A stretch of DNA of 64,000 nt, from the NCBI RefSeq assembly GCF_024436435.1, contig NZ_JAFMZP010000002.1, positions 124,001 to 188,000 on the forward strand, in the 5' to 3' direction. Shown in pieces: positions 38,457-63,979 of this stretch. A program made the position numbers and the translations under genes. The stretch is from Desertivirga xinjiangensis. Lineage in GTDB: Bacteria; Bacteroidota; Bacteroidia; Sphingobacteriales; Sphingobacteriaceae. Each line of letters opens with the position of its first letter. Within the stretch, counting starts at the first letter, position 1. The notes under the pieces were generated by a model. It made no database searches and was not told the DNA's origin. It saw only the letters and a list, made by a program, of their open reading frames with translations.

Positions 38457-38499
38457 AGTGTTCAGTAAAGCGAATTCTGAATCTGCCAATTTGAAAAAC

Positions 38500-42425: not shown

Positions 42426-43724
42426 ATGAGGAACATTGTTGAAAACGTAAAGATCGCTGTAGTAGGCTTGGGTTATGTAGGCCTGCCTCTCGCTGTCGAA
42501 TTTTCTAAAAGATATAAGGTCTTTGGCTTTGATATTCATTCAGAAAGGGTGGAACAGTTAAAATCTGGCCATGATCATACTCTGGAGGTTTCTGAAGCAG
42601 ATCTGAAAGATGTCATTACTCAGGATTGCACGGAGCCGACCGGTTTGTTCTGTACCAGCGATGCTGAGTTACTGAAACAATGCAATGTTTATATCATTAC
42701 CGTACCTACACCCGTAGATAAAAATAAGCGCCCGGATCTGATTCCTCTTTTTAAGGCCAGCACTACTGTCGGAAAGGTGTTAAAGAAAGGAGACATTGTA
42801 GTTTACGAATCAACGGTATATCCCGGTGTAACCGAAGATGAATGTGTTCCGGTCCTTGAAAAACACTCAGGCCTCAAATTTAATACAGATTTTTTTGCCG
42901 GATATTCCCCTGAGCGGATCAATCCCGGTGATAAGCTGCACACCGTTTCCAAGATCCTTAAAATCACTTCAGGTTCAACTCCTGAGGCTGCAGCTATAGT
43001 AGACAATCTATACAGGTCGGTAATTGGGGCAGGTACTCATAAAGCTACCTCTATTAAGGTTGCCGAAGCTGCTAAAGTTATCGAGAATGCTCAAAGAGAT
43101 ATAAACATTGCTTTCGTTAATGAACTAGCTATGATTTTCAATAAAATGGGAATCGATACGCAGGACGTGCTTGATGCAGCAGGCACTAAATGGAACTTCC
43201 TGAAATTTCAACCTGGCTTGGTCGGAGGGCACTGCATAGGAGTAGATCCCTATTACCTGGCGCAAAAAGCGCAGGAAGTGGGTTATCACCCGGAAATCAT
43301 ACTTGCCGGCAGGCGGGTGAATGATGGAATGGGTGGATATGTCGCTGATCAGTTAGTTAAACGGATGCTTTCTAAAGGAACAAACGTTGCCAATAGTGAT
43401 GTCCTGGTGCTAGGTTTTACCTTCAAAGAAAACTGCCCTGACGTAAGAAATACAAAAGTGATAGATATAGTTAAACGTCTTGAGGAATACAAAATAAATG
43501 TATGTATTCATGACCCATGGGCAGATGCCACCCAGGTAAAGCATGAATACGGAGTGATCTGCCAAAATGGAGAATCCAAACAGAGAAAATACGACGCCAT
43601 ATTACTTGCAGTAGCTCACCATGAATTCAAAGACCTGGATATTCAGAGCTTGTGTAAAACAAATGCGGTTGTTTATGATATCAAGTCGGTATTGCCGGCT
43701 TCCGTTGTAGACGCGCGCCTTTAG
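42426..43724 (+). CDS. Nucleotide-sugar dehydrogenase (WbpO/TviB-like)
   Basis: The 432-residue protein is a four-electron UDP-sugar dehydrogenase. It has the N-terminal NAD-binding [20 protein letters not shown]-like motif (about 9-28), the central [20 protein letters not shown] helix, and the catalytic cysteine in [13 protein letters not shown] (about C268). Similarity in pattern to TviB/WbpO suggests oxidation of UDP-GlcNAc or UDP-GalNAc to the uronic acid. The adjacent epimerase supports UDP-GalNAcA as final product. Confidence 0.9.
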
Positions 43725-43759
43725 TATTATCTGTTCATTATCTAAAAAAAAAATCTCTT

Positions 43760-44818
43760 ATGACTATCATGTATAACATTCCATACCATAACGGCGTTGA
43801 TCTGGCTAACCTCAATTTCCTGGTAACCGGCGGTGCCGGATTCATAGGATCGCACCTGGTAGAGTACCTGTTGAAATATGGTGCAGCTAAAGTGCGGGTG
43901 CTTGATAACTTTTCAACCGGTTTTAAAGCGAATATAACACAGTTTGTTAATCATCCTTCATTTGAACTGCTTGAGGGTGACATCCGTGATCTGTCTGCAT
44001 GCAAAAAAGCCTGTGAAGGAATCAACATCGTGCTGCATCAGGCCGCCTTAGGTTCCGTTCCCCGGTCAATAGAGGACCCGTCTACAACAAATGAGGTTAA
44101 TATCAATGGCTTTTTAAATATGCTGATAGCCGTAAGAGATGCAGGAGTGGCCAGAATGGTCTATGCAGCGTCTTCTTCAACTTACGGTGATAGTAAAGAG
44201 CTGCCAAAAGAGGAAGATAAAATAGGCAAGCCTTTATCTCCCTATGCTGTCACTAAATATGTTAATGAAATCTATGCCGATGTTTTTGCACGTACTTACG
44301 GATTAAAATTAATTGGCCTGCGCTATTTTAATGTATTTGGACCCCGTCAGAACCCGAATGGCGCCTACGCAGCTGTTATACCGAAGTTCATACTGAAGCT
44401 TTTAGCTCATGAGAGTCCGCTGATCAATGGCACCGGAGAGTATTCCCGCGATTTCACGTTTATCGACAACGTGGTCCAGATGAATATAAAGGCTGCGCTT
44501 ACCACAAATGACCGGGCTGTTAACCAGGTGTATAATGTGGCTTATGGCGAGCAAACGAACCTGAATGAACTTGCCATGTATCTGAAAGAGGACCTTGCAG
44601 AAACCGATGAATTGATAGCAGATGTTCCTGTCTTATATGGACCGGAAAGAGCAGGCGACATTCCGCATTCCCTGGCTTCAATAAACAAGGCTATACAGCT
44701 CTTGGACTATAAGCCGCGGTTCTCCTTCCAGGAGGGGCTTAAGGAAACAGTAAAATCATACGTTTCAGACAACCGGTTCACAGTAGCTGCGTCTGAACAC
44801 CAAAGTGCCTATTCATGA
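43760..44818 (+). CDS. NAD-dependent UDP-sugar 4-epimerase (WbpP/TviC-like)
   Basis: The 352-residue extended SDR protein has the Rossmann motif FLVTGGAGFIGSHLVEYLLK, ASSSTYGDS with the catalytic Ser/Thr, and the YAVTK (YxxxK) pair. GLRYFNVFGPRQNPNGAYAAVIPKF is typical of WbpP/TviC enzymes, which interconvert UDP-GlcNAc(A) and UDP-GalNAc(A). It overlaps the flippase start by 4 bp (ATGA) and so is translationally coupled. Confidence 0.9.
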   Translation: MTIMYNIPYHNGVDLANLNFLVTGGAGFIGSHLVEYLLKYGAAKVRVLDNFSTGFKANITQFVNHPSFELLEGDIRDLSACKKACEGINIVLHQAALGSVPRSIEDPSTTNEVNINGFLNMLIAVRDAGVARMVYAASSSTYGDSKELPKEEDKIGKPLSPYAVTKYVNEIYADVFARTYGLKLIGLRYFNVFGPRQNPNGAYAAVIPKFILKLLAHESPLINGTGEYSRDFTFIDNVVQMNIKAALTTNDRAVNQVYNVAYGEQTNLNELAMYLKEDLAETDELIADVPVLYGPERAGDIPHSLASINKAIQLLDYKPRFSFQEGLKETVKSYVSDNRFTVAASEHQSAYS

Positions 44819-46257
44819 CTTTGCGTGAAAAAACAATCGCGGGCTTGCTATGGTCTATTACCGAACAATTCAGTTCCAAACTGATAGGGATTTTAATATC
44901 TATTTTCCTTGCCAGAATATTGGCGCCGGCGGAGTTTGGTTTGATCGCCATGCTTTCGGTGTTTATTTCAATTGGGAATTCTCTGATAGAAAGTGGATTA
45001 ACTTCATCACTGATACGAACAGATAATCCAACAAATGAAGATTTTTCAACCGTTTTTTTCTTTAACCTTTTCGGTAGTATCATCATTTATGGGATACTTT
45101 TTTTTAGTACCCCTTATATCGCTTTGTTCTATAGACAGGAACAACTAATAAATATTATCCGCGTTTACGGCATTTCCTTTATTATCAATGCACTTTTCAC
45201 TGTTCAAAGTGCAAGGCTAACGAAGGCGATGAATTTTAAGATTCAAACACTTATTAACATTCCATCGGTGATCGGAGGGGGGATAACTGGTTTAACCCTG
45301 GCTTATGCGGGTTATGGAGTCTGGAGTTTAGTGTGGATGATGTTATGCAGCTCCTCTATATCAACGCTGATGTACTGGATTTACTCAGACTGGCGTCCAA
45401 TGCTGACCTTTAATACAAACAGTTTCAAAAAGCACTTTTCTTTTGGTTATAAGATGACTTTGTCCGGAATTCTGGAAAATATCTATAGGAACACCTTTGT
45501 CATAATCATAGGGAAGTATTATTCGGCAACACAATTAGGGTTTTACTCTCGTGCTGAGTCGCTAAGCCAGTTGCCATCTACCAATATATCGATTGCCTTA
45601 GGCAAAGTAACGTATCCCATGTTTGCTTCTATAACCCATGATAATGAAAAATTAAAAGTTGTATATAAAAGGGTTCTCCAGCAGGTATTGTTCTGGAATG
45701 CACCCTGCCTGGTACTGTTATGTGTCATTGCCGAACCGCTGTTTGCATTTCTGCTGACTGAAAAGTGGTTGCCCGCCGTCCCATATTTTCAGATACTATG
45801 TATAGCAGGAATAATGTATCCTCTGCATGCATACAACCTTAATATTTTAAAGGTTAAGGGCAGGAGCGATCTGCTGCTAAAATTGGAGTTTATTAAAAAG
45901 ACCATCAGCGTTGCCGGAATACTTATGGTAATCCCATTCGAAATCTTCGGACTATTGTATTTTCAGCTTGGATGCAGCTTCCTGTTCTATTTTATAAACT
46001 CCGTTTATAGCGGGAAAATAATAAGTTATCCGGTGAGCGAGCAAATTGGAGATATATTTCCAACCATTGGATTGTCTGCCATTACCGGGCTCTTATGCAG
46101 GTATGTCGACATACAGATGGTTAAACAGTTCAATTCTGTTGACATAGATCGCATTCTAATTATCAGCCTTCTCTATCTTTTAGCTTACTTAAGCTGCAGT
46201 AACATGATCAGACTTACTGCTATAACTGATTTTAAACATCTAATCTTGAAAAAATGA
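44815..46257 (+). CDS. Lipid-linked oligosaccharide flippase (Wzx/WzxC-like)
   Basis: The 480-residue polytopic protein starts MTLREKTIAGLLWSITEQFS and continues FLARILAPAEFGLIAML, typical of the WzxC/MviN-like polysaccharide exporters. About twelve hydrophobic helices are visible. It overlaps both neighbours by 4 bp, so the three genes are translationally coupled. Confidence 0.9.
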   Translation: MTLREKTIAGLLWSITEQFSSKLIGILISIFLARILAPAEFGLIAMLSVFISIGNSLIESGLTSSLIRTDNPTNEDFSTVFFFNLFGSIIIYGILFFSTPYIALFYRQEQLINIIRVYGISFIINALFTVQSARLTKAMNFKIQTLINIPSVIGGGITGLTLAYAGYGVWSLVWMMLCSSSISTLMYWIYSDWRPMLTFNTNSFKKHFSFGYKMTLSGILENIYRNTFVIIIGKYYSATQLGFYSRAESLSQLPSTNISIALGKVTYPMFASITHDNEKLKVVYKRVLQQVLFWNAPCLVLLCVIAEPLFAFLLTEKWLPAVPYFQILCIAGIMYPLHAYNLNILKVKGRSDLLLKLEFIKKTISVAGILMVIPFEIFGLLYFQLGCSFLFYFINSVYSGKIISYPVSEQIGDIFPTIGLSAITGLLCRYVDIQMVKQFNSVDIDRILIISLLYLLAYLSCSNMIRLTAITDFKHLILKK

Positions 46258-47420
46258 TACCTGTTACTAAACCCTATCTCCCTAATGTTCATGAATATGA
46301 AGATTATTTGAACAGTATCTGGGAGCGGCAATGGTTAACCAACAATGGCCCATTGGTGAATGAATTCGAGTTAAAACTTAAACGCTATCTTAAAATTCAG
46401 CATTTGCTTTTTGTTTCGAACGGAACGATTGCACTGCAAATCGCCATAAAGGCGCTTGATTTAAGAGGCGAAATTATCACAACACCTTTTTCTTATGTGG
46501 CAACCAGCAGCAGCATTGTATGGGAGGGATGCACACCTGTTTATGTCGACATAGACAAGGATACATTTAACATCGATCCAGCAAAAATTGAAGCTGCTAT
46601 CACACCCCAAACGTCTGCAATAGTAGCAACACATGTATTCGGTAACCCTTGCGATATTGATGCCATTCAGGAGATTGCCGACCGGTATGATTTAAAAGTG
46701 ATCTACGATGCGGCTCATTGTTTCGGCACCACCTACAAGAATAAATCTGTATTTGAATACGGGGATATCAGCACAACCAGCTTTCATGCGACAAAACTTT
46801 TTCACACGATAGAAGGTGGGGCTGTTTTCACCATGGATCCGGAATTGTTGAAGAAGATGTCTTATATGAGAAATTTCGGTCATAATGGGCCTGAAAGTTT
46901 TGCTGAGCTGGGTATAAACGCAAAGAACTGCGAATTCCATGCAGCCATGGGTTTATGTAATTTGAATTATGTCGATGAAATACTGGAAAAAAGGAAGTCC
47001 TTATCATTTTATTATTGGAAGCATTTAGAGGAATTGGAAGCGACCTATCCAAAGTTAAATGATGATCTCGACTACAATTATGCCTATTTTCCGGTAGTGT
47101 TTGAGTCTGAAGATCTGATGCTTAAGTCACTTGAAGCATTAGCGGCGGAAAAGATTTACGCACGGCGATACTTTTATCCCTCTTTATCAAGTTTACCTTA
47201 TGTTAATAAACAGTTTGTTCCTATCTGCGAGTCAATCGCAAATAGGATTGTATGCCTGCCTCTTTATCATTCTCTCACGTTTTCAGATCTTGAATTGATT
47301 AGCAGAGTGTTGCTTCGTGTTCAAAACTATTATAAACCACAACAATTAAATACCAGTCGTTCTCCAATATTGGTTGAAAAAGAAGTTGTGTTTGAAATCA
47401 ACGCGCACAAGAATCCTTAG
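46254..47420 (+). CDS. DegT/DnrJ/EryC1-type sugar aminotransferase
   Basis: The 388-residue PLP enzyme has the Schiff-base lysine K181 in TTSFHATKLFHTIEGGAVF, D152 in YDAAHCFG, and the N-terminal WERQWLTNNGPLVNEFE signature. It should transaminate a UDP- or dTDP-4-keto sugar to a 4-amino or 3-amino sugar. No 4,6-dehydratase is present in the window, so the keto-sugar supply must be encoded elsewhere. It is translationally coupled to the flippase gene. Confidence 0.9.
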   Translation: MIPVTKPYLPNVHEYEDYLNSIWERQWLTNNGPLVNEFELKLKRYLKIQHLLFVSNGTIALQIAIKALDLRGEIITTPFSYVATSSSIVWEGCTPVYVDIDKDTFNIDPAKIEAAITPQTSAIVATHVFGNPCDIDAIQEIADRYDLKVIYDAAHCFGTTYKNKSVFEYGDISTTSFHATKLFHTIEGGAVFTMDPELLKKMSYMRNFGHNGPESFAELGINAKNCEFHAAMGLCNLNYVDEILEKRKSLSFYYWKHLEELEATYPKLNDDLDYNYAYFPVVFESEDLMLKSLEALAAEKIYARRYFYPSLSSLPYVNKQFVPICESIANRIVCLPLYHSLTFSDLELISRVLLRVQNYYKPQQLNTSRSPILVEKEVVFEINAHKNP

Positions 47421-47461
47421 AGCTATAACTCAATCATTTCAAAATCAAACATATCTGTTTA

Positions 47462-48325
47462 ATGGAAAACCATACCTCCGACATTAAAGTTAGTATTTGC
47501 TGTATCACCTATAATCACGAAAAATATATAGCAAAGGCAATTGAAGGATTCTTGAATCAAAAGACATCTTTTAAGTATGAAATCCTAATAGGCGAAGATT
47601 GTTCAACAGATAATACTTTAGCTGTGATCAACGATTATATAAAAAGATTTCCCGGTCAGATCAAACTGATTACCGGAGATAAAAATATAGGATCTATAAG
47701 AAATCTGGTCAGGGTTTTTGCCGAAGTACAGGGTAAATACATTGCATTTTGTGACGGAGACGACTATTGGACGGACCCCCTCAAAATTCAAAAACAGGTC
47801 GATTTTCTCGAAAATAACCTGGATTATACATTATGCTTCCACTATTCAGAAGTAGTTGACAGTTTTGAAAAAACCATATATGTTTCTCAATGTCCCAAAC
47901 CGCTTAGTTATACCTATAAAGATTTCTTAATAGGCAGGAGAGATGAAACCAGAATTGGCACTATGATGGTTGTTAACTCCGAGGAAGTAAGAAACATTAG
48001 TAAAAACGACTGGTACTATACCACTAATGGAACCGATGCGATCTTCAAGCTTTATGCAACTGCTGTTACCGGGGGTAAGGGATTTGTTCTGCCCGAAGTG
48101 ATGAGTTGTTATCGTATACATGCCGGTGGTGTCTGGAGTATGATCAATTCAAAAGTGAAAAAGAAAAAAATGCTTAGTGATTTTAAAATAGTGATAAATA
48201 ATTTCAAGTATTCTTCCTTTCAAAAAAGAGAATTGCTGAAAATCTACATGAAAAAATACTTCTTCTTCGAGATTCGAAACTTTCGGCTGAATAGTGTTCT
48301 TCATACGTTGTCTACCCTATTGTAA
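47462..48325 (+). CDS. Family 2 glycosyltransferase
   Basis: The 287-residue GT-A fold protein starts KVSICCITYNHEKYIAKAIE and carries GEDCSTDNTL, the DGDDYW metal/nucleotide-binding block (about residues 98-103) and a C-terminal SCYRIHAGGVW segment. It adds one sugar to the repeat unit on the cytoplasmic side; donor and acceptor are unknown. Confidence 0.88.
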   Translation: MENHTSDIKVSICCITYNHEKYIAKAIEGFLNQKTSFKYEILIGEDCSTDNTLAVINDYIKRFPGQIKLITGDKNIGSIRNLVRVFAEVQGKYIAFCDGDDYWTDPLKIQKQVDFLENNLDYTLCFHYSEVVDSFEKTIYVSQCPKPLSYTYKDFLIGRRDETRIGTMMVVNSEEVRNISKNDWYYTTNGTDAIFKLYATAVTGGKGFVLPEVMSCYRIHAGGVWSMINSKVKKKKMLSDFKIVINNFKYSSFQKRELLKIYMKKYFFFEIRNFRLNSVLHTLSTLL

Positions 48326-48366
48326 TTTCTGACATAAGCAGGAATTCACGGTTAATTCCTATAGCC

Positions 48367-49572
48367 ATGTTTAAAAAGCTAACCATATTTGGGATCGTTC
48401 TCTTGTATTTATACACGTTATCGTTTAATGTGTTTATGACATCTGTCTTTAGAATCCCAACTCCTCTTTTATTCGGTTTACCCTTAATTTTTTTATTCGG
48501 CAAGATTAAACAAATTGCTTTTTCCTATAGACGGGAATTATTGGTCTTTTATATTGCAGCAATTTTTCATTATCTCGTTGGATACGAAGATGTAAAATCG
48601 TTTTTTGTAGTCATTATCATTATTACCTGTTGCAGCCTGTTCTATAATTATTTCATAGGAGATAATTTGAATAGGATGAAACTCGCCATTTTTATATTTT
48701 ATGCTTTATTGATATTTTCTTCGATGATAATGTTGCTTAATCATGTTTATACCAGTCAGATTAATCAATTAAGAGCGTTGTTGACAGGTGAGTCGGTAAA
48801 AATCCTGCAAAGTCCTTCTGGAATATCTGCTTTTATTTTTACTTTCGGCTATCAAATAGCAGCCCTCACCTCATTTGGGATAGTGTCTGTCGCTGTTTTT
48901 AGAAAGAATCTTCTTATTCAGCTGCTAGTATTTATATTTTGTGTATTGCTGATATTCTGGGGAATGAGTCGGTCGGTGCTGGTTGTTCTTGCGTTGTCAG
49001 TTGGCACTTTCTGGGTGTTATTTTACAGGATTAAAACGGTCATTATCTTCGCTGCTTTATTTTCGGTTGTTATGCTTTTGAGTTCCTCTATTCAAAACCT
49101 GGCAGGCGGCCGGAAACAAAACATTTTTGCCAAAAATGAAAAGCATGTCAAAGAAAATCGCAGTGGTTTGGCTGTTGAAAATCTAAAGATCATTGCAGAT
49201 AATCCACTAGGTTTAACCTGGACAGGCAAGACATGGGAGCAGGTAGCCAGATACAACCCGACCTTTAAGTTGGGAGAATCCGGCCTGGTTACATCCCACA
49301 ATGCTTACCTTATGTTTATTACTTATTTGGGAATTGTTCCCGGTTTAATTTTTCTTCTATTATTTTATCAGAGAATTATCAGGATATTCTGGCTTATCGC
49401 AGGGCAGGTTCGAAAACCAGAAAACGCCTTGCTGGTTTCCCTATGTTTTTCCCTATTTGCTATATCTCTCAATTCTTTTTTCCATAATGACTGGCTACTT
49501 GGCGGAAGTGGGCCTACACTGTTTCTTTATTTCGGTGTTCTCCACCTTGCAAGGCTCCAGGGTATAAGGTAA
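48367..49572 (+). CDS. Polysaccharide polymerase (Wzy-like)
   Basis: The 401-residue protein has about ten or eleven hydrophobic segments and a large loop around 260-310 (NLAGGRKQNIFAKNEKHVKE, ending LVTSHNAYLMFITYLGIVPG), the S/T-H-N motif of O-antigen ligase/polymerase-like proteins. Sequence conservation in this group is always low; assignment rests on topology, this loop and the locus lacking any other candidate polymerase. Confidence 0.78.
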   Translation: MFKKLTIFGIVLLYLYTLSFNVFMTSVFRIPTPLLFGLPLIFLFGKIKQIAFSYRRELLVFYIAAIFHYLVGYEDVKSFFVVIIIITCCSLFYNYFIGDNLNRMKLAIFIFYALLIFSSMIMLLNHVYTSQINQLRALLTGESVKILQSPSGISAFIFTFGYQIAALTSFGIVSVAVFRKNLLIQLLVFIFCVLLIFWGMSRSVLVVLALSVGTFWVLFYRIKTVIIFAALFSVVMLLSSSIQNLAGGRKQNIFAKNEKHVKENRSGLAVENLKIIADNPLGLTWTGKTWEQVARYNPTFKLGESGLVTSHNAYLMFITYLGIVPGLIFLLLFYQRIIRIFWLIAGQVRKPENALLVSLCFSLFAISLNSFFHNDWLLGGSGPTLFLYFGVLHLARLQGIR

Positions 49573-49621
49573 CTGAGAGGTTCCTTCCTTTACTTTTTAT
49601 TTCTCATCTAACTTCGAAACT

Positions 49622-50869: not shown

Positions 50870-50875
50870 ATCTAT

Positions 50876-51472
50876 ATGGTTACAAAACGTACTTTTGATA
50901 TTGTAATTTCCTTTTTGGCACTCCTTTTTCTGTTTCCTGTATTTATAATTATATCTGCTGCGATCATTATAGACTCAAAAGGAGCTGTGCTTTTCAGGCA
51001 GAGAAGAGTTGGCCGTAATAAAGTTGATTTTGATCTTCTCAAATTCAGAACGATGGAATCAAACGCCAGTAAACTCGGACTGCTAACCATTGGAGATCGC
51101 GATGCTCGTGTGACCCGAGTGGGATATTGGCTGCGCAAATATAAACTGGATGAGCTGCCTCAATTATTAAATGTTCTTAAGGGCGATATGAGTCTTGTCG
51201 GACCGCGTCCCGAAGTAAAACGTTATGCTGATCTTTATAATCCTACTCAGCAAAGAGTTTTTGAGGTGAAACCAGGTATTACAGACTGGGCGTCCATCCA
51301 ATTCTGCAATGAAAGTGAGCTTTTGGCTCAATATAGCGATCCCGAAGTATTTTATGTTCAGGAGCTGCTTCCTGCAAAGCTTGCGAAAAACCTTAGCTAT
51401 ATCGAACATCACGACTTATGGATTGATCTTAAAATAATTTGCCTTACACTTCGGAAAATTGTTAAGAAGTAA
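50876..51472 (+). CDS. Initiating sugar transferase (undecaprenyl-phosphate glycosyl-1-phosphate transferase)
   Basis: The 198-residue protein has the bacterial sugar-transferase fold: membrane hairpin (RTFDIVISFLALLFLFPVFI), then LFRQRRVGRN, FDLLKFRTM, YKLDELPQLLNVLKGDMSLV and GPRPE. It is the short form without the N-terminal multi-helix domain of WcaJ. It starts each repeat unit by transferring a sugar phosphate to undecaprenyl phosphate. Confidence 0.93.
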   Translation: MVTKRTFDIVISFLALLFLFPVFIIISAAIIIDSKGAVLFRQRRVGRNKVDFDLLKFRTMESNASKLGLLTIGDRDARVTRVGYWLRKYKLDELPQLLNVLKGDMSLVGPRPEVKRYADLYNPTQQRVFEVKPGITDWASIQFCNESELLAQYSDPEVFYVQELLPAKLAKNLSYIEHHDLWIDLKIICLTLRKIVKK

Positions 51473-51482
51473 TCAATAGAAT

Positions 51483-53589: not shown

Positions 53590-53636
53590 TGTACAAGTCA
53601 GTTGCATCATTGCTATATAGAATTAACAAATAAACT

Positions 53637-53806: not shown

Positions 53807-54485
53807 GAAAAACTATACATTAAGCGATGTAATTGGCTGGGATGTGGTCAATTGGTCAAAAGCGATTTCTTTTTGGGAAAAGCATATTGATTTACAAAAT
53901 AGGAATTTTCGATGCCTTGAACTGGGAGCGAGTAAAGGAGGATTGTCGCTTTGGTTAGCTTTAAATAAAAATAACGTATTGTGCACCGATCTTCGCGGCC
54001 CTAAAAAAGAAGCGGAATGGCTGCATGGAAAATACAATTGTTCTGAGGAAATTAGCTACGCTTCTGTTGATGCAACAAATATTCCGTTTGAAGGCCAGTT
54101 TGATCTTATTGTTTTTAAATCAATACTTGGAGGGATCTGTGGAATGGAAAAAAATGAGCTAAAGAAGAAGATTGCCGAAGAAATATATAAAGCGTTGAAA
54201 CCTGGTGGCGTTTTGCTGTTTGCCGAAAATATGGAAGCTACATTAGTTCATAAATTCTTTCGGAAGAAATATGGAACCAGAAATTGGAATTATCTGAAGA
54301 TGAATGAGATAGGTGACGTTTTCTCATCTTTCTCCAACCTTAGGTATACTACTGTGGGATTTCTTGGATGTTTTGGCAGGAATGAACAACAAAGGAGCTT
54401 TTTCGGAAGAGTTGACACCGTCATTGAAAAGCTCTTACCTCAAAACTATAAGTATATCCTAATTGGTGCAGCCGAAAAGCGTTAA
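53805..54485 (+). CDS. Class I SAM-dependent methyltransferase
   Basis: The protein (226 residues from ATG 53805) has RCLELGASKGGLSLWLALN (motif I, about 32-50), CTDLRG, SVDATNIPFEGQFDLIVFKS and LKPGGVLLFAENM, the standard class I order. A GTG at 53748 would extend the frame into the upstream repeat and is disfavoured. Position in the locus suggests O- or N-methylation of a sugar, though the target is not shown. Confidence 0.82.
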   Translation: MKNYTLSDVIGWDVVNWSKAISFWEKHIDLQNRNFRCLELGASKGGLSLWLALNKNNVLCTDLRGPKKEAEWLHGKYNCSEEISYASVDATNIPFEGQFDLIVFKSILGGICGMEKNELKKKIAEEIYKALKPGGVLLFAENMEATLVHKFFRKKYGTRNWNYLKMNEIGDVFSSFSNLRYTTVGFLGCFGRNEQQRSFFGRVDTVIEKLLPQNYKYILIGAAEKR

Positions 54486-54526
54486 GCTGATTAAGTTATA
54501 TATTTTTTTCAACCAGCATACAAAAA

Positions 54527-55591: not shown

Positions 55592-55648
55592 AAATGGGGT
55601 CTACCAGTTCCAGTTCTTTGAACGACTAAATCTAAATAATAATTTCTT

Positions 55649-57535
55649 ATGTGTGGTATATTCGGTTCAACAATTAAATATAATGAGGCGATACTAGCTG
55701 AAAAACTGGATAAAATAAATTTCCGGGGCCCAGATTACTCGGGATCTCTTTATATAGACGATCTTGTATTGGGTCATAACAGGTTAGCAATCATTGATCT
55801 GGATCATCGATCAGATCAGCCATTTTCTTATTTACATCTACATATAGTTTTTAATGGTGAGATCTATAATTACCAGGACATTAAAAGTGACCTTGTTAAG
55901 AAAGGTTACCGGTTTACAACCGCTGCGGACACGGAAGTGATATGTGCTGCGTTTCTTGAGTATGGCAGGGCCTGCGTAAATTATTTCAATGGCATGTTCG
56001 CTTTTGTTATCTATGATTCACAAAAGAAAACGCTCTTCGGAGGGCGCGACAGGCTCGGAAAAAAACCACTTTATTATAGCTTGGCTGGTGGAGAGTTTGA
56101 GTTTGCTAGTCAGCCCTCACAAATTACTCTGGCACGCAATTTTACATTAGATACACAAGCTATTTATGAATATTTAAAGTGGGGTTATATTCCTGAACCC
56201 AGGTCTGTTTGGACTCAGATAAGGAAAGTGCCAGCCGGACACACATTCACTTATTCTTTAACTAACCGGTCTTTTGAAACGGAAAAGTACTGGGATCTTG
56301 ACTATAGCTGGAAAAAGCGTTTTACAGGCGACTACGGGAAGGCAAAACACATATTAAATAATCTCTTGTTTGATGCGGTAAAACTAAGGATGCATGCTGA
56401 CGTGCCGCTTGGAGTTTTTCTGTCGGGTGGAATTGACTCTTCGCTAGTAGCTACAGTGGCTACAAAAATAGTCTCGAACGTCAAAACCTTTTCAATGAAA
56501 TTTAATGAAAAAGGCTTTGATGAAAGTATTCACGCGGCAAAAGTAGCAAATTGTCTTGGAACAGATCATCACACCATTGAGTGTAACTATAGCCAGGCTA
56601 TGGATCTTATCAGGAATTTTTCATTGTACTATGATGAACCATTTGCAGATTCAAGCGCCATTCCAAGTATGTTATTAAGTAAACATACAAAACAGCACGT
56701 AACAGTAGCCCTCAGTGGCGATGGTGGTGACGAGGTCTTTCTGGGTTATGAAAGATATAAATGGATAAGATCCAGAAATTATCTGTTCAGATCTCCGCAA
56801 TTTGTACGTAAATATATATCCAGTTTGATCAGCTTATCACCACTGTACAAACATAAGTTGGTTGCAAAAGCAATAAACATTGAAAATATCCAATCGCTTT
56901 ATGTGAAAATGTTTGGAGGGCTTGATAACAGTTGGATAGATATGCCGAAATGCGGCGCCGATGGTCCTTTTATACATCTCCTCTCAAATTCAAATAAGCC
57001 GTTGATGGAAACAGTCTCTGACTTTGATATTAAAACTTATCTGAACGATGATATAAACACTAAGGTTGACCGGGCTTCTATGGCCTTTTCTCTTGAGGCA
57101 AGGTCTCCTTTAATGGACTACCGTATTATCGAATTTGGAAGAAGCTTGCCTACAAGTTTCAAGTATAAAGGTAACATACAAAAGAGAATATTGAAGGATA
57201 TTCTCTTTGAGCACCTCTCAGCCCGCCTATTCGACAGGCCAAAAGCGGGATTCACCATGCCGTTTGCAGAATGGTTTCGAAACGAGCTGAAAGAATATGT
57301 GTTAGACAATCTTTCTGCGGCCAAGTTAAAACAAATTCCCGGCATAAACATCAGGAGAAGTCAGGAGATCATTAATGAACATATGACGGGGAAATGGAAC
57401 AGGTATCCACAGATCTGGAAGCTTCTGGTCTTGAGCCAATGGCTTAATAACCAGAATAAGACAGAACACTTCCATCGAATCTCTTTGAACGCTGTGGGAT
57501 CCCTAAAGGACAGGTCGCCAGGATCAACAGACTAG
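55649..57535 (+). CDS. Asparagine-synthase-like amidotransferase
   Basis: The 628-residue protein has an N-terminal glutaminase domain starting MCGIFGS (nucleophile Cys2) with FRGPDYSG, HNRLAIIDL and FNGEIYNY. The C-terminal ATP-binding synthetase domain has the PP-loop VFLSGGIDSSLVA (about 256-268) and SGDGGDEVFLGYERY. Paralogues in O-antigen loci amidate uronic acids, for example GalNAcA to its amide. With UDP-GalNAcA synthesis genes in the same operon, that is more likely here than cellular asparagine supply, but both remain possible. Confidence 0.9.
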   Translation: MCGIFGSTIKYNEAILAEKLDKINFRGPDYSGSLYIDDLVLGHNRLAIIDLDHRSDQPFSYLHLHIVFNGEIYNYQDIKSDLVKKGYRFTTAADTEVICAAFLEYGRACVNYFNGMFAFVIYDSQKKTLFGGRDRLGKKPLYYSLAGGEFEFASQPSQITLARNFTLDTQAIYEYLKWGYIPEPRSVWTQIRKVPAGHTFTYSLTNRSFETEKYWDLDYSWKKRFTGDYGKAKHILNNLLFDAVKLRMHADVPLGVFLSGGIDSSLVATVATKIVSNVKTFSMKFNEKGFDESIHAAKVANCLGTDHHTIECNYSQAMDLIRNFSLYYDEPFADSSAIPSMLLSKHTKQHVTVALSGDGGDEVFLGYERYKWIRSRNYLFRSPQFVRKYISSLISLSPLYKHKLVAKAINIENIQSLYVKMFGGLDNSWIDMPKCGADGPFIHLLSNSNKPLMETVSDFDIKTYLNDDINTKVDRASMAFSLEARSPLMDYRIIEFGRSLPTSFKYKGNIQKRILKDILFEHLSARLFDRPKAGFTMPFAEWFRNELKEYVLDNLSAAKLKQIPGINIRRSQEIINEHMTGKWNRYPQIWKLLVLSQWLNNQNKTEHFHRISLNAVGSLKDRSPGSTD

Positions 57536-57557
57536 ACTATATTATTATCCTACCATT

Positions 57558-58655
57558 ATGAGCACAAAAATACTATTTCTAACCCCGGGTATGTGGAAGG
57601 GTGGCGCCGAAACTCAGCTTTTGAAGATAGCCCGGTTTTTAAAGTTTCAAAATAACGACGTTATGATTATTTCTCTGAAACCAATAAACGGGTTTAACAC
57701 AAATTTTGAGGAGGAGGGGCTGCGGGTTGTATTTCTCAAAAACTGGAAAACACATTCAATATCCAATTGCATGTTATTGTATAAGGCCGTGAAAGCATTT
57801 AAACCAGACGTGACTATTGCTTTTATGTTTATAGCCATCATTTTTGCTAGAATACTGAAAATTCGTTTTAAGTTTAATTTAATTTCCAGCATCAGAACTT
57901 CGGTGCTTCCTAAAAAATGGAATATACCATTTAGGCTTACCGCTGTCCTGGACGATAAAGTGGTGTATAATTCTCATGCATCAAAATTAAACTTTGAGAA
58001 CAGGAATCTGGTTCGAAAACTAGGCATCGTTATCAATAATGGAATCTTTTTGCCCGAACTCCAATGCCAGAATAATGTAAATTCTAGCGGAATCTTCGTT
58101 TGGATTTGTATAGCACATTTTAAGTGGAATAAAGATTATCTAACTTTATTCAAAGCGATCGCCCTGTTGAAACAATATAAGTTCAGAGTAGATATTATAG
58201 GAAATTTAAACGATGAAGTTTGGCCGTTTAAAGTTATTAAGGACCTTGGAATTGAAAACCATGTTCGTTTGCTCGGATTTAAGCCCAATGCTTCTGAATA
58301 TCTTAGAAGGGCTGAAGCATTCGTTCTTTCGTCATTCATGGAGGGAATGCCTAACGCTATTTTAGAAGCCATGGCTTATAGAAAACCTGTTGTGGCATCT
58401 GCCATTGATGGCAATATTGAATTATTACAAGGAGCTAATGCCGGACTTCTTTTTGAACCTGCTAACCAGCAGGATTTGGCCGATAAGATGGTGCAGGTTA
58501 TGCATATGAGTGAGGATAACCGTATTGCTTTGGGAAGGAGGGGTCGAAACTATATCGAAAGTAATTTCTCCGAAGCGAAGGTGATGAGCGATTGGTCTGA
58601 CATTATTAGTGATTATTCAAAAAATGGAAAGGCGAGGTTAAACGCCTCTGTTTAG
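57558..58655 (+). CDS. Family 4 glycosyltransferase
   Basis: The 365-residue GT-B protein starts KILFLTPGMWKGGAETQLLK and has IAHFKWNKDYLTLFKAI, LGFKPNASEYLRRAEAFVLS, SFMEGMPNAILEAMAYRKPV and SAIDGNIELL. It lies 22 bp after the amidotransferase gene. The donor is unknown. Confidence 0.9.
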   Translation: MSTKILFLTPGMWKGGAETQLLKIARFLKFQNNDVMIISLKPINGFNTNFEEEGLRVVFLKNWKTHSISNCMLLYKAVKAFKPDVTIAFMFIAIIFARILKIRFKFNLISSIRTSVLPKKWNIPFRLTAVLDDKVVYNSHASKLNFENRNLVRKLGIVINNGIFLPELQCQNNVNSSGIFVWICIAHFKWNKDYLTLFKAIALLKQYKFRVDIIGNLNDEVWPFKVIKDLGIENHVRLLGFKPNASEYLRRAEAFVLSSFMEGMPNAILEAMAYRKPVVASAIDGNIELLQGANAGLLFEPANQQDLADKMVQVMHMSEDNRIALGRRGRNYIESNFSEAKVMSDWSDIISDYSKNGKARLNASV

Positions 58656-58711
58656 AACTTAAATTGTATCTATTAAAAACTGATTAATAATTAACTTATA
58701 ACATCTATCTT

Positions 58712-59827
58712 ATGAAAGTATTAGTAACCGGAAGCGCAGGTTTTATTGGTTTTCATTTAGTAAAGCAATTGTTGGAACGGGGAGATGAAGTTGTGGGCAT
58801 TGACAACATTAATGATTACTATGATGTAAATCTAAAGTATGCCAGATTGCGCGAAACAGGCATACTCAAAAATAAAATAGTTTATGGTCAGACTGTAAGG
58901 AGTGTTGAATACCCAAACTACCAGTTCGTGAAGTTGGATTTAACAGATGCCGAAGCACTGGATGACCTTTTTAAAATGCATAATTTCGACTCGGTTTGTA
59001 ATCTGGCAGCTCAGGCTGGCGTAAGATACAGCCTGGTTAATCCACGGTCGTATATTGAATCAAACATCAATGGTTTCATCAATCTCCTGGAATGTGCCCG
59101 TCATCATCACATTAAACATCTACTTTATGCAAGTTCATCAAGTGTATATGGATTGAACTCAAAAATGCCTTTCTCGGCCAATGATAATGTCGACCATCCG
59201 ATATCATTATACGCTGCTTCCAAAAAAAGCAATGAGCTTATGGCTCATTCCTATAGTCATCTTTTTAATTTACCAACCACTGCCCTCAGATTTTTCACAG
59301 TCTACGGACCGTGGGGCAGGCCTGACATGGCGATGTTTCTGTTTACGAAGGCTATGTTAGATGACAAACCAATAGAAGTATTTAACGGGGGAGACATGAA
59401 GCGTGATTTTACTTATATCGATGATATTATTGATGGAATAGTGAAAGTAATTGATAATCCGGCACAAAGAAATGAAGATTGGAACGCTGCGGCCCCTGAT
59501 CCGTCGTCCTCAAATAGTCCTTATCGTATATACAATATCGGTCGTGGAGAGCCCGTCAGGCTTATGGACTTTATTACGGAAATAGAGAAAAACCTCGGTA
59601 TTATAGCTAAAAAGAAGTTTCTTACGATGCAAGATGGTGACGTATCAAAAACCTGGGCAGATATAAGTGATCTCAAATCGCTTGGTTATCAACCTAAAGT
59701 CTCTGTAAAAGAGGGAATTAAAAGTTTCGTAAAATGGTATAAAGACTTCTACAATTTCGACGAAATCGAGACTAAACTTAGAGAAATCAACATACCAATA
59801 CTTAACGAATTACCAGTGACTCGCTAG
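58712..59827 (+). CDS. UDP-glucuronate 4-epimerase-like SDR protein
   Basis: The 371-residue protein starts MKVLVTGSAGFIGFHLVKQL with GIDNINDYYDVNLKYARLRE, the hallmark of UDP-GlcA 4-epimerases. It continues with NLAAQAGVRYSLVNPRSYIE, SSSSVYG, YAASKKSNE (YxxxK) and FFTVYGPWGRPDMA. It would make UDP-galacturonic acid for the polymer. It is the last gene of the run; no clear terminator follows. Confidence 0.92.
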   Translation: MKVLVTGSAGFIGFHLVKQLLERGDEVVGIDNINDYYDVNLKYARLRETGILKNKIVYGQTVRSVEYPNYQFVKLDLTDAEALDDLFKMHNFDSVCNLAAQAGVRYSLVNPRSYIESNINGFINLLECARHHHIKHLLYASSSSVYGLNSKMPFSANDNVDHPISLYAASKKSNELMAHSYSHLFNLPTTALRFFTVYGPWGRPDMAMFLFTKAMLDDKPIEVFNGGDMKRDFTYIDDIIDGIVKVIDNPAQRNEDWNAAAPDPSSSNSPYRIYNIGRGEPVRLMDFITEIEKNLGIIAKKKFLTMQDGDVSKTWADISDLKSLGYQPKVSVKEGIKSFVKWYKDFYNFDEIETKLREINIPILNELPVTR

Positions 59828-60312
59828 TGTCCTCTACTGAGGAAAACTTGACTGTTTTACCGCTCACTTTTCGGTTTTTATTTAAAATAAAATCGTTCCA
59901 AATTCACAACACTTTTCCAAGAATGAGATTGTGGTGATCAAATGTGACAATCATATAGCGTTTTTGTGACATCTTGATGGCATTTTCCGTATCCAAGAGA
60001 GTTTGAATTGTGCCAAACGTGAGAAATTTTTTTACGCTTTTAGTTTAATGCACTGAAATCTTCAAAAAAATTCTGGAAATAAAAAACTCAATATTAATCG
60101 AAGGGTTTTCTTTTGTAAAGTAGCTTATTTCTTAAAGTGATAATAGATGGCGTCTGTCGAAAGTTTAAAATATATCTTTTTTGTCTAAGCGTAATTTTTT
60201 TTGGAATGAGATACCTGGCTTAATACGCAAATTAATCGTTCTTTCATACTGATTCACCCCGTATCCTATTCGCTGTGAAATGCGTTACAGGGGTGTAAAT
60301 TTTTAAAACAGT
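59828..60312. other. Upstream region of first pectate lyase gene
   Basis: This is a 485-bp AT-rich gap. The last 36 or so bases, GTTACAGGGGTGTAAATTTT followed by TAAAACAGT before the ATG, recur almost unchanged before the second lyase gene (62549-62584), so they are a shared leader. Shorter matches (AAATCGTTCCAAA at 59889-59901; TGTGACAAT at 59943-59951) also recur in the second upstream region. No promoter pair could be fixed. Confidence 0.5.
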
Positions 60313-62031
60313 ATGAAGAGAACATTAAAGCTTAAAAACGGATTAGCAAAAGGTCTGCTATTTTCAACAGTTATCTTATTCAGCCAATGTCAGAAAGAGC
60401 AAAATGACTTGGTTCCGGAGGTAACAGTAAATTCCATTTCGGCAGTAAGTTCGCAAACATTTTCACTAGATGTTGCTGCAGCGTCATCAAAAGGAGGATA
60501 TTCTTATGTGATCTATAAGGATTTTAAAACTCCTGGAGATACTGATGCAAAGAAAACTCAGTCTATCCTCAAGATCTATGAGAATGGTAAAGAGTTGGGC
60601 CCAGCACATTCTTTGCACCGGGACGTAAAAATTTCCGGTAAAGGAAGGTTTAGTCATTGGGGAAATGAACTGTATTTTTCAGCGTCTGATAATACAAACC
60701 CACGTACAAACGGTCGTAAGTACACCTATAGTGTCGGAAGTATAGCAAGTGAACCTACACCTACACCTACACCGACTCCTGCACCTACGCCAAGCCAACC
60801 ACTCTCGCTAAACGTTTCTGATGCGTCGTCAATGGGAGGGTATTCTTATGTAATTTATGAGGATTTTAAAACTCCAGGCGATAGCGAATCAAAGAGAACC
60901 CAGTCTATCCTCAAGATTTATGAGAATGGTAAAGAGTTGGGCCCAGCACACTCTTTGCATAGGGATGTAAAAAACCTGGGTAAGGGAAGGTTTAGTCACT
61001 GGGGAAATGAGCTGTATTTTTCAGCATCTGATAATACAAACCCACATACAAACGGACGTAAGTATACTTATACTATTGGAAGTGCAACTGGTACTCCGAC
61101 ACCTATACCTACACCAACGCCTGTACCGACTCCGACACCAACACCTAGCACTGGTATTATAGGATATGCCAATGTTGATGGGAAAACCACGGGAGGTCAG
61201 GGCGGTCAAACAGTAACAGTAACCAGCCTGTCGGCTCTAAAGAGTGCAGCATCTTCTTCTTCCCCAATGATCATCCAGATATCTGGTACGATCACCGGAA
61301 CAGGAAGCGTAACACTTAAATCAAACAAAACCATTGTTGGACTTAAAGGTGCCGTAATGAATGGAGTAGGATTTAAGATTTTTAATATATCGAATGTAAT
61401 AATTCAAAATTTGAAGATCCAGAATGTAGTGGCTGGGACAGATGATAATGATTGTGTTAATATCAAGAATTCACACCACATCTGGATAGATCATTGTGAA
61501 ATGTCGGCTAGCAAAATGAGCAATTGGGATTATTACGATGGCTTGATAGATATCACAAAAGGATCAGATTATATAACAGTATCCTGGAACAAGCTGCATG
61601 ATACCAACAAGGCGATATTAATCGGCGGCGGAGACGGAACAACTTCGGATCGTGGTCATCTACGTGTAACTCTGTATAAGAACTACTTATATAACATTGC
61701 AGAAAGACAGCCACGAATCAGGTTTGGTAATGTCCATGTATTCAATAACTATATTAAAAATGGAAGTGGATACGGTGTAGCAGTTGCCATGGGAGGAACA
61801 GTTCGTACCGACAACAATTACTTTGAAGGAACCAATGCGCCTCTTAAAACAGATGTAGGTGGCACAGCTGGTTATGTAAGTGGTGCAAGCACAAACATAT
61901 TCAAAAGTTGTGGAGCAAACCGAATCACTTCTTCTGCATCTACCTGGTTGCCTCCATACAGTTATAATTCAGAAGTTATTGCGGCAGCTAACGTACCTTC
62001 AGTAATAATGAATGGTGTAGGTCCAAAATAA
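60313..62031 (+). CDS. Pectate lyase family (PL1) lipoprotein with two N-terminal repeat domains
   Basis: The 572-residue protein has a lipobox cysteine C26 (LFSQC). Two copies of a domain of about 93 residues follow (about 49-142 and 164-255; GYSYVIY, KTQSILKIYENGKELGPAHS, GRFSHWGNELYFSASDNTNP), each with a Pro-Thr linker behind it. The PL1 domain runs from about 280 to the end, with IWIDHCE, DGLIDITKGSDYITVSWNKL and RQPRIRFGNVHVFNNY, the last holding the catalytic-type arginine. It should cleave polygalacturonate-like polymers by beta-elimination at the cell surface. The repeat domain is not one I can name. Confidence 0.88.
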   Translation: MKRTLKLKNGLAKGLLFSTVILFSQCQKEQNDLVPEVTVNSISAVSSQTFSLDVAAASSKGGYSYVIYKDFKTPGDTDAKKTQSILKIYENGKELGPAHSLHRDVKISGKGRFSHWGNELYFSASDNTNPRTNGRKYTYSVGSIASEPTPTPTPTPAPTPSQPLSLNVSDASSMGGYSYVIYEDFKTPGDSESKRTQSILKIYENGKELGPAHSLHRDVKNLGKGRFSHWGNELYFSASDNTNPHTNGRKYTYTIGSATGTPTPIPTPTPVPTPTPTPSTGIIGYANVDGKTTGGQGGQTVTVTSLSALKSAASSSSPMIIQISGTITGTGSVTLKSNKTIVGLKGAVMNGVGFKIFNISNVIIQNLKIQNVVAGTDDNDCVNIKNSHHIWIDHCEMSASKMSNWDYYDGLIDITKGSDYITVSWNKLHDTNKAILIGGGDGTTSDRGHLRVTLYKNYLYNIAERQPRIRFGNVHVFNNYIKNGSGYGVAVAMGGTVRTDNNYFEGTNAPLKTDVGGTAGYVSGASTNIFKSCGANRITSSASTWLPPYSYNSEVIAAANVPSVIMNGVGPK

Positions 62032-62064
62032 AAAAATCGGGCTTTCAACATTCATCAAATATCT

Positions 62065-62106
62065 AACGCATAAATAAGGGCTAGTACTAGCCCTTATTTA
62101 TGCGTT
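62065..62106. terminator. 42-bp perfect palindrome after first lyase gene, terminator-like
   Basis: The arms AACGCATAAATAAGGGCTAGT and ACTAGCCCTTATTTATGCGTT are exact reverse complements with no spacer, 34 bp after the stop codon. The T-tract is short (TTTATAAC), so it may act in either direction. The same AACGCATAA string begins after the second lyase stop at 63981. Confidence 0.75.
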
Positions 62107-62584
62107 TATAACAAGTGTTAAAGGGAGTTAAAATTTGACTAGTTTTCAATCCACTTTAACCCCAAAAAATCGTTCCAAAAAATGCTGGGTTTATGTAGAA
62201 AAAAATAACAATAGATTTAAAGATTTAGAAGATGATGTTCTTATGATAGTTTAATGATCTTCTTGTGACAATAGCTTTTCTGTATAGTGAAATTTTTAAG
62301 AAAATCTGTGAACTTATTTTACGATATCTAAAATACCTTTGATTATGTTACCATAAATCTAAATTAATTTATCGCTCTGCTTACCACACCGGAAGAATTA
62401 TTTTAAGTGAAATTGCTTATTGCAGTTAATCCGGTTGATTTATAGTTTGTGCATTTGTTTGTAAGTTAAATCGCATAAAGCATTGTTAATTTGATTATAT
62501 AAATTTACCGAGCTTTCCAACTGTGTACCCGCGTATCCTTTATTGTAAAAGGGCCGTTACAAGGGTATAAATTTTTAAAACAGT
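62107..62584. other. Upstream region of second pectate lyase gene
   Basis: This gene-free AT-rich stretch of 478 bp parallels 59828-60312: the 3'-most part (GTTACAAGGGTATAAATTTT, then TAAAACAGT) is nearly identical and the rest is diverged. This indicates that the duplication unit included the promoter region. No confident promoter boxes were identified. Confidence 0.45.
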
Positions 62585-63979
62585 ATGAAGAGCAAAGTTA
62601 ATTTTAGAGGTAGGCTACCAATGAGCTTATTATTATCCACTATCTTTTTATTTAGTCAGTGCCAGAAAGAGTCAGACAATGATTTTAATCTAGAGACCTT
62701 ACCTGCTAGCACCATCTCAGCAGTACCGACGTCACCGGCTATTATCGCCATAGACGTTAACAGTGTATCATTAAAAAGCGGAAATTCTTATGTCGTATAC
62801 AAGAATTTCAGCACTCCCGGAGACAACTCTTCGAAACCAACTCAATCTATCCTCAAGATTTATGAGAATGGTAAAGAGTTGGGCCCGGCACACTCGTCGC
62901 ATGCGGATATAAAGAATCTTGGTAAAGGAAGATTCAGTCATTGGGGAAATGAGTTGTATTTTTCAGCTTCTGATAATACAAACCCACGTACAAACGGGCG
63001 TAAATATACTTATACCATTGGAAGTGCAGGAGCAGGTAGTTCCGTGTCAATTCCTACAACACCAACGCCTGCACCGACTCCGACACCAACACCTAGCACT
63101 GGTATTATAGGATATGCCAATGTTGATGGAAAAACCACGGGAGGTCAGGGCGGTCAAACAGTAACGGTAACCAGCCTGTCGGCTCTAAAGAGTGCAGCAT
63201 CTTCTTCTTCCCCAATGATCATCCAAATATCTGGTACGATCACCGGAACAGGAAGCGTAACCCTTAAATCAAACAAAACCATTGTTGGACTTAAAGGTGC
63301 CGTAATGAATGGAGTAGGATTTAAGATTTTTAATATATCGAATGTAATAATTCAAAATTTGAAGATCCAGAATGTAGTGGCTGGGACAGATGATAATGAT
63401 TGTGTTAATATCAAGAATTCACACCACATCTGGATAGATCATTGTGAAATGTCGGCCAGCAAAATGAGCAATTGGGATTATTACGATGGCTTGATAGATA
63501 TCACAAAAGGATCAGATTATATAACAGTATCCTGGAACAAGCTGCATGATACCAACAAGGCGATATTAATCGGCGGCGGAGACGGAACAACTTCGGATCG
63601 TGGTCATTTACGTGTAACGCTGTATAAGAACTACCTATATAACATTGCAGAAAGACAGCCACGAATTAGGTTTGGTAATGTCCATGTATTCAATAACTAT
63701 ATCAAAAATGGAAGTGGATACGGTGTAGCAGTTGCCATGGGAGGAACAGTTCGTACCGACAACAATTACTTTGAAGGAACCAATGCTCCTCTTAAAACAG
63801 ATGTAGGTGGCACAGCTGGTTATGTAAGTGGTGCAAGCACAAACATATTCAAAAGTTGCGGAGCAAACAGGATCACTTCTTCTTCATCTACCTGGTTGCC
63901 TCCATATAGCTATACTTCAGAAGTTATTGCGGCAGCTAACGTACCTTCCGTAGTAATGAACGGCGTAGGTCCAAAATAA
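62585..63979 (+). CDS. Pectate lyase family (PL1) lipoprotein with one N-terminal repeat domain
   Basis: The 464-residue paralogue of the preceding gene has a lipobox C26 (LFSQC), one copy of the unnamed domain (about 54-148), a Pro-Thr linker and the PL1 domain. The catalytic part differs from its neighbour by only three residues near the C-terminus (SSSST, YSYTS, VPSVVM) and the DNA from about 63061 on is nearly identical to 61113 on, whereas the N-terminal halves have clearly diverged. This indicates recent conversion or selection on the catalytic half. The gene is complete within the window. Confidence 0.88.
   Translation: MKSKVNFRGRLPMSLLLSTIFLFSQCQKESDNDFNLETLPASTISAVPTSPAIIAIDVNSVSLKSGNSYVVYKNFSTPGDNSSKPTQSILKIYENGKELGPAHSSHADIKNLGKGRFSHWGNELYFSASDNTNPRTNGRKYTYTIGSAGAGSSVSIPTTPTPAPTPTPTPSTGIIGYANVDGKTTGGQGGQTVTVTSLSALKSAASSSSPMIIQISGTITGTGSVTLKSNKTIVGLKGAVMNGVGFKIFNISNVIIQNLKIQNVVAGTDDNDCVNIKNSHHIWIDHCEMSASKMSNWDYYDGLIDITKGSDYITVSWNKLHDTNKAILIGGGDGTTSDRGHLRVTLYKNYLYNIAERQPRIRFGNVHVFNNYIKNGSGYGVAVAMGGTVRTDNNYFEGTNAPLKTDVGGTAGYVSGASTNIFKSCGANRITSSSSTWLPPYSYTSEVIAAANVPSVVMNGVGPK

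Follow-up and report, generated by a model that had tools for sequence, protein, structure and literature searches.

What are genes for pectate-lyase-like enzymes doing inside a locus that builds a polysaccharide? The question is raised by a stretch of Desertivirga xinjiangensis DNA of 64,000 nucleotides (the window, C19:124001-188000 of a 5.5 Mb genome; coordinates without a prefix are window positions), in which two genes for lyases of polysaccharide lyase family 1 (PL1) follow the synthesis genes of a Wzx/Wzy-type polysaccharide locus starting at 38458. The answer that we consider probable is that these lyases, predicted to be lipid-anchored and built into the locus, cut that locus's own uronate polymer. 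The features on which this reading turns are the following.

58712..59827 (+): UGE, UDP-glucuronate 4-epimerase-like (Epimerase family; best PDB matches 5u4q and 6zl6)
60261..60287 (+): promoter-like element GTATCC-N16-CGTTA, 25 nt before the ATG of lyase 1
60313..62031 (+): PL1 lyase 1, predicted lipoprotein (Cys26), two N-terminal domains and a PL1 domain (PF00544)
60442..60744 (+): N-terminal domain copy 1, lyase 1
60790..61083 (+): N-terminal domain copy 2, lyase 1, 83% identical to copy 1
61111..62031 (+): catalytic-domain stretch of lyase 1, 898 of 921 nt the same as in lyase 2 (63059-63979)
62533..62559 (+): promoter-like element GTATCC-N16-CGTTA, 25 nt before the ATG of lyase 2
62585..63979 (+): PL1 lyase 2, predicted lipoprotein (Cys26), one N-terminal domain and a PL1 domain (PF00544)
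62741..63025 (+): N-terminal domain, lyase 2, 75% identical to copy 1

Position and inheritance of the lyases

Both PL1 lyases sit inside the locus, between UGE and a glycosyltransferase, because locus genes carry on past them outside the window: the glycosyltransferase, an open reading frame (ORF339), a GNAT gene, two PF13480 (FemAB-like) genes and a PF02719 dehydratase of the PglF/WbpM type. The first-pass annotation of the window had the lyases follow the operon; their adjacency holds, whereas the view that they end the locus does not, since synthesis genes resume downstream. A DegT-like assignment for ORF339 (L007:3521-4540) was dropped, as it has no Pfam or NCBIfam match.

This placement is retained across the family Sphingobacteriaceae. 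In a comparison set of 399 genomes from 25 genera (counts not adjusted for relatedness), the N-terminal domain, searched with a 101 aa probe, was found in 64 genomes (source included) and seven genera, and relatives with the same lyase include two Arcticibacter species; Arcticibacter svalbardensis shows the same gene order, with the lyase in the locus. The flanking glycosyltransferase (E <= 1e-80) occurs in 66 of the 399; 64 of these 66 carry the domain, and no genome with the domain is without that glycosyltransferase. We examined the neighbourhoods in the 63 other domain-bearing genomes, together with five second loci. The lyase lies inside the polysaccharide locus in 58 of the 63, as the first-pass annotation had suggested checking; the order UGE-lyase-glycosyltransferase is unbroken in 55, in two more a single additional gene or tandem lyase intervenes, and in another the contig starts at the lyase. 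The producer-plus-lyase arrangement that had been proposed thus gains support from a lyase embedded in the locus and kept there across genera. A lyase gene inside the synthesis locus, and conserved there, is also what marks the self-polymer lyases of the VexL/AlgL type.

The lyase's constant partner is UGE and not TviB/TviC, because UGE directly adjoins the lyase or a gene for the N-terminal domain only in 62 of the 63 relatives (the 63rd is at a contig edge), while TviB and TviC were found by blastp in 12 and two, respectively, of 18 upstream stretches read. The enzymes for N-acetylgalactosaminuronate (GalNAcA), initially put forward as the lyases' partners, are therefore not constant companions.

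The lyase also appears to be co-inherited with the locus. On 44 loci, the lyase site class changes 4–6 times on the trees of other locus genes (Wzy 5, UGE 4, glycosyltransferase 5, PglF 4, FemA 6), compared with ~19 times when labels are shuffled; on the tree of threonyl-tRNA synthetase (ThrRS) for 29 genomes there are 6 class changes, versus 4–5 on locus-gene trees. Within one genus, partial Mantel values with catalytic-domain distances, computed on unequal subsets, were 0.69 for ORF339, 0.66 for Wzy, 0.20 for the glycosyltransferase and 0.10 for UGE. For the 19 genomes that have the full gene set they were 0.79 (ORF339), 0.76 (Wzy), 0.67 (PglF), 0.46 (glycosyltransferase), 0.42 (UGE) and 0.31 (FemA). 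A special co-evolution of lyase and Wzy was not borne out: the contrast shrinks on the 19 genomes, and the tree counts give Wzy no distinction. Our verdict is co-inheritance of the lyase with the locus, with no proof of a particular link to Wzy.

The remaining locus genes in the window that bear on synthesis and export are listed below.

38458..39279 (+): Wza-like polysaccharide export protein (PF02563, SLBB domains), syntenic in relatives
39318..41564 (+): Wzc-like co-polymerase/tyrosine kinase (PF02706 Wzz, PF13807 GNVR, AAA_31)
41891..42421 (+): NusG-family protein (PF02357), UpxY-like antiterminator by position
42426..43724 (+): TviB-type UDP-GlcNAc 6-dehydrogenase (NCBIfam NF011729, 594.3 bits versus cut-off 592)
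43760..44818 (+): TviC/WbpP/WbgU-like 4-epimerase (best PDB matches 10ke, WbgU and WbpP, ~350 bits)
44815..46257 (+): Wzx-type flippase (PF13440, 305 bits)
48367..49572 (+): Wzy-like polymerase (PF04932, 34.8 bits versus cut-off 31.7)
50876..51472 (+): initiating sugar-phosphate transferase (PF02397, E 6e-59)
55649..57535 (+): asparagine-synthase-like amidotransferase, AsnB (PF00733 and TIGR01536, above cut-offs)

Two DegT aminotransferases and glycosyltransferases also lie between the Wza end and UGE. Where a Vi-type locus has ABC-transporter export (VexA-E) and a TviE polymerase, for which no dedicated search was made, this locus has Wza, Wzc, Wzx, Wzy and the initiating transferase. Pfam, NCBIfam and PDB comparisons placed the dehydrogenase, the epimerase, the amidotransferase, the UDP-glucuronate 4-epimerase-like gene and the two PL1 genes where the first-pass annotation had them.

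UDP-GalNAcA is a fair prediction for D. xinjiangensis, because TviB scores just above a curated cut-off and the TviC-like enzyme (367 bits against NCBIfam NF011728, under the cut-off of 760) is closest to enzymes of the WbpP/WbgU type. A second TviB-like dehydrogenase is encoded elsewhere in the genome (C22:258707-259951, 549 bits versus the cut-off of 592). For UGE, no equivalog reached its cut-off among the 25 NCBIfam matches listed; we predict a UDP-glucuronate 4-epimerase from the signature motif of such enzymes, RFFTVYGPWGRPDM. Its UDP-glucuronate could come from a dehydrogenase at C11:19139 that resembles the UDP-glucose 6-dehydrogenase TuaD (516.6 bits, cut-off 700), and AsnB may amidate the uronate. 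In an Arcticibacter locus, a PhyH-type dioxygenase (267 aa, PF05721) is encoded at L015:13807-14610, and a gene of 267–269 aa recurs there in many relatives; it is missing from the D. xinjiangensis locus and may modify a sugar.

In the mechanism that we propose, UGE would supply UDP-galacturonate, to which TviB/TviC would add N-acetylgalactosaminuronate in D. xinjiangensis; Wzx/Wzy would assemble the polymer and Wza/Wzc export it. A lipid anchor would keep the lyase at the cell, with the chain probably bound by the N-terminal domain(s), and the lyase would break a uronate linkage by beta-elimination, trimming or releasing chains outside the cell. Its own promoter-like element could allow cutting to be tuned apart from synthesis.

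Enzyme, N-terminal domain and upstream element

The two lyases score 134.7 and 135.6 bits against PF00544 (cut-off 24, E ~1e-39). Their catalytic halves are 97.5% identical in DNA and their N-terminal domains 74–82%, consistent with an origin by recent duplication (with domain change) or by gene conversion. A structure model of lyase 2, built with 49 sequences (mean predicted local distance difference test (pLDDT) 83), fits a right-handed parallel beta-helix of the pectate-lyase type; its residues 172–464 align with the pectate lyase 7bbv (Z 44.6, root-mean-square deviation 1.4, 286 aligned). In one relative, pglF is followed by a further PL1-like gene, which lacks the N-terminal domain (L099:758-1876).

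We surveyed the active site in 49 lyases, taking columns as aligned by MAFFT and presuming the PelC Arg218-equivalent to be catalytic and further positions to serve Ca2+/substrate binding. All 49 have both the catalytic Arg and the WIDH Asp. At the other positions the canonical residue is less frequent: the two Asp of DGLID in 27 and 23 lyases, the Lys in 10 (replaced in 39) and the second Arg in 24 (replaced in 25). The complete six-residue pectate-lyase site occurs in nine lyases, both window lyases included, and at least one Ca2+/substrate position is altered in 40. Since the Arg and the WIDH Asp are invariant, selection seems to maintain catalysis; as the other site residues vary, the chemistry seems to have been kept while the substrate pocket changed class by class. 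The altered pockets therefore argue against plant homogalacturonan as the common substrate, the window pair's own substrate aside. A Cys at the Cys26 position, after a hydrophobic stretch, is present in all 49 aligned lyases, and we predict from it a lipid anchor and export to the cell surface.

The N-terminal domain, which in the D. xinjiangensis genome is confined to the two window lyases, matched no Pfam family above cut-off (Cyclophil_like, 19.1 versus 27 bits) and no NCBIfam family, and its sequence profile gave 0 matches in the PDB at E <= 10. Its model is beta-rich (pLDDT 93.4) and found nothing in Foldseek at E <= 0.001; the best structural alignment was to XylC (3vst, Z 7.8), a level that the tool calls common. 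Small domain-only genes (106–165 aa as called) lie directly before UGE in the loci of 14 relatives, five of them in genomes whose lyase is displaced from that site; nine loci hold both a domain-only gene and a lyase. Outside the family, the domain was found in 2/395 phylum genomes besides the source, of which one gave a weak match with a disrupted frame. At L156:9814-12042 it lies C-terminally in a protein of 742 aa that looks multi-pass by eye and has no Pfam match, in surroundings that read as a polysaccharide locus of another family in the phylum. Among plasmid records there was one match: 58% of the probe aligned with an SGNH/GDSL hydrolase on the Solidesulfovibrio plasmid NZ_CP026539.1 (L158:9791-11482), near glycosyltransferases and asnB. 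A search of phages with the domain gave 0 matches. Its recurrence in polysaccharide-locus contexts, in L156 and on the plasmid, suggests that the domain may bind polysaccharide.

The lyase gene may also have its own promoter. The gap upstream of the lyase is long (median 214 nt in 56 loci, versus 22 nt for 470 other adjacent gene pairs). A relaxed form of the element before the window lyases, (A/C/G)TA(A/C/T) and CGTT(A/T) 16–19 nt apart within 130 nt upstream, was found before 49 of 62 lyases versus 17 of 703 other locus genes and 0 of 13 domain-only genes, the pattern having been written after the alignment was viewed and the related genomes not being independent. Shuffled lyase upstreams contained it in a mean of 3.3 of 62. 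The stricter GTA form precedes 28/62 lyases and 5/703 other locus genes, with six more elsewhere on the + strand of the window. Genome-wide, GTATCC-N15-17-CGTTA occurs 10 times, compared with six for a reversed control, and only the two pre-lyase sites lie at most 150 nt upstream of the start of a same-strand open reading frame; as the lyase genes are paralogues, these two sites count as one observation. Spacing and sequence resemble those of promoters of the extracytoplasmic function (ECF) type; no sigma factor is linked to the element. A leader RNA with apparently covarying arms was dropped in favour of the promoter-like element because Rfam gave nothing over its gathering score and RNAalifold 0 pairs on 48 leaders. 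The standard Bacteroidota promoter pattern precedes 6/58 lyases (five from close relatives) versus 3/521 controls, and its -7 part alone 9/62 versus 10/527; seen before so few, it fails to explain most lyases.

A beta-helix protein encoded at 4809-6269 (PF13229), divergent from a second wza/wzc pair, had been pointed out beside that pair. The position is right and a conserved link is lacking: the protein matches 7/399 family genomes (source included), and in 10 loci of relatives neither Wza nor Wzc was seen within ~1.5 kb. As a third self-lyase it is thus unsupported. Some of the relatives' copies lie in open frames of ~800 aa.

Weighing the readings

Several observations count against the lyases cutting the polymer of their own locus. 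Conserved synteny could come from block inheritance. Two genomes (G076 and G143) with the flanking glycosyltransferase have no PF00544 match, and their locus differs. In five of the 63 relatives the lyase lies away from the UGE site, each time with a TonB/SusC-like gene 2–7 kb off; two of the five are not linked to wza/wzc in the stretch read, and in L060, where the lyase does lie in the locus, the locus is followed by a SusC-like gene. The window lyases most resemble two pectate lyases, one fungal and one bacterial (7bbv, 7xks), and with every canonical site residue retained they may cut polygalacturonate. Of the genome's three other PL1-type matches, one (C19:22849) lies ~20 kb from the nearest listed SusC. 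Finally, the residue at -1 to Cys26 is Gln (Lys/Asn in others), which departs from the textbook lipobox.

For the other three displaced lyases, a wza-wzc pair is at most four genes away and the domain-only gene ~26 kb away, and in all five cases the domain-only gene stays directly before UGE. The five (L078, L080, L086, L091, L093) share two neighbours (476–506 aa and 326–327 aa), as if moved once.

Embedding in a synthesis locus would fit equally well with periplasmic housekeeping, in which a periplasm-facing lyase degrades polymer straying during export instead of finished polymer outside. AlgL has been proposed to clear stray polymer in the periplasm, the PDB title of VexL, which is related in fold (Z 35.2), calls it a periplasmic depolymerase, and a lipid anchor is compatible with either membrane face. 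We nevertheless judge this unlikely: the residues after Cys26 (CQKEQND, CQKESDND) resemble the surface-lipoprotein export signals of Bacteroidota, AlgL and VexL are not known to be lipoproteins, and a separate promoter-like element is less expected for an enzyme needed at every synthesis.

Foraging on plant polygalacturonate, with the position in the locus incidental, would account for the pectate lyases as closest solved structures, the six canonical residues of the window pair and the TonB/SusC-like genes near the five displaced lyases, and 13 GH88/105 matches elsewhere in the genome could use the products. None of these 13, however, is near the locus, and 17 SusC/SusD reference sequences gave 0 tblastn matches in the window, L006 and L007, which agrees with the earlier remark that the window holds no SusC/SusD pair. 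Nor was a pectin utilisation locus seen just outside the window, as had been allowed for: the nearest SusC downstream (C19:218914) is ~31 kb away in an alginate-type context. The genome has other PL1-type genes beside SusC and SusD, C23:13190 and C23:119823 (the latter under the Pfam cut-off), each 3–5 kb from SusC with SusD alongside. With the same synthesis-locus place in 58 of 63 relatives and the loss of the canonical Lys and second Arg in so many homologues, we regard foraging as very improbable. The alginate-type context, L008:7130-20000 (C19:213130-226000, ~25–38 kb past the lyases), reads as an alginate utilisation locus, with a PF05426/PF07940 alginate-lyase-like gene, SusC, SusD and PF14592 (chondroitinase B, PL6-type), as well as an MFS transporter and an SDR gene by eye.

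That the proteins mainly bind, the N-terminal domain tethering polymer to the outer membrane and PL1 activity being weak or gone in many relatives, would suit the domain-only genes directly before UGE in 14 loci and the changed Ca2+/substrate positions, but is hardly credible given a catalytic Arg and WIDH Asp invariant in every lyase surveyed.

Cutting of the locus's own polymer is thus the reading that we prefer. A bolder version, which we advance tentatively and hold to be somewhat doubtful, is a widespread Sphingobacteriaceae self-lyase system in which one undescribed domain, fused or stand-alone, would tether the coat and guide cutting, the pocket would have diversified with coat type, and the lyase alone would be promoter-switched. 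If true, it would amount to a coat-release system and a ready set of coat-type-specific depolymerases. Should own-polymer cutting hold true, self-lyases would be a fixed part of one coat machinery across several genera of an environmental family and not a few odd cases such as AlgL, VexL, WceF and RbmB. Structural studies of uronate polysaccharides would gain numerous natural lyases, each specific to a coat, and whether bacteria shed their coat by cutting it could be tested simply. Own-polymer cutting would also caution that PL1 genes in Bacteroidota do not always stand for plant-pectin degradation.

Comparison with known systems

Among the papers listed by literature searches on lyases in Pedobacter/Sphingobacteriaceae, or in other polysaccharide synthesis loci, none describes this lyase, judging by titles and abstract openings. 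The cutting of their own polymer by producers is already known, with VexL, WceF and RbmB as precedents. AlgL is likewise encoded within the synthesis locus of alginate, the polymer that it cuts; it is a periplasmic PL5 alpha-barrel. The PL1 pectate lyases 7bbv, 7xks and 3zsc, which degrade a plant polymer, resemble the window pair in fold (Z 40–45) and catalytic site, with matches that cover model range 171–464 and leave out the N-terminal domain.

VexL, the Vi-antigen depolymerase of Achromobacter denitrificans (PDB 6fi2), shares the PL1/pectate-lyase fold with the window lyases (279 residues aligned) and is reported to come from a strain producing the polymer that it cuts (PMC9597891). The likeness extends to Vi synthesis, to which TviB/TviC-type enzymes belong by their NCBIfam names and which has these counterparts in the window locus. 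VexL, however, is periplasmic by its PDB title and belongs to an ABC-transporter capsule system, whereas the window lyases are predicted lipoproteins of a Wzx/Wzy locus that carry additional N-terminal domains, share 27% identity with VexL and are constantly linked to UGE instead of TviB/TviC.

WceF of Pantoea stewartii is reported to be a beta-helix enzyme encoded in the stewartan synthesis operon that cuts stewartan, its mutants having longer chains (PMC7949094). It is a trimeric hydrolase that resembles tailspikes and carries a Tat signal, in contrast to the predicted PL1 lyase lipoproteins of the window. RbmB of Vibrio cholerae is reported to be a pectin-lyase-like lyase of its own matrix polysaccharide that acts in biofilm disruption (PMC11637428). 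Its structure (PDB 9ozl) aligns with the lyase 2 model at Z 21.4 and 18% identity. RbmB is not known to have a lipid anchor or an N-terminal domain of the window-lyase kind. Within the literature covered, we found no account of a PL1 lyase that carries an undescribed domain and is fixed in a Wzx/Wzy locus over several genera of Bacteroidota.

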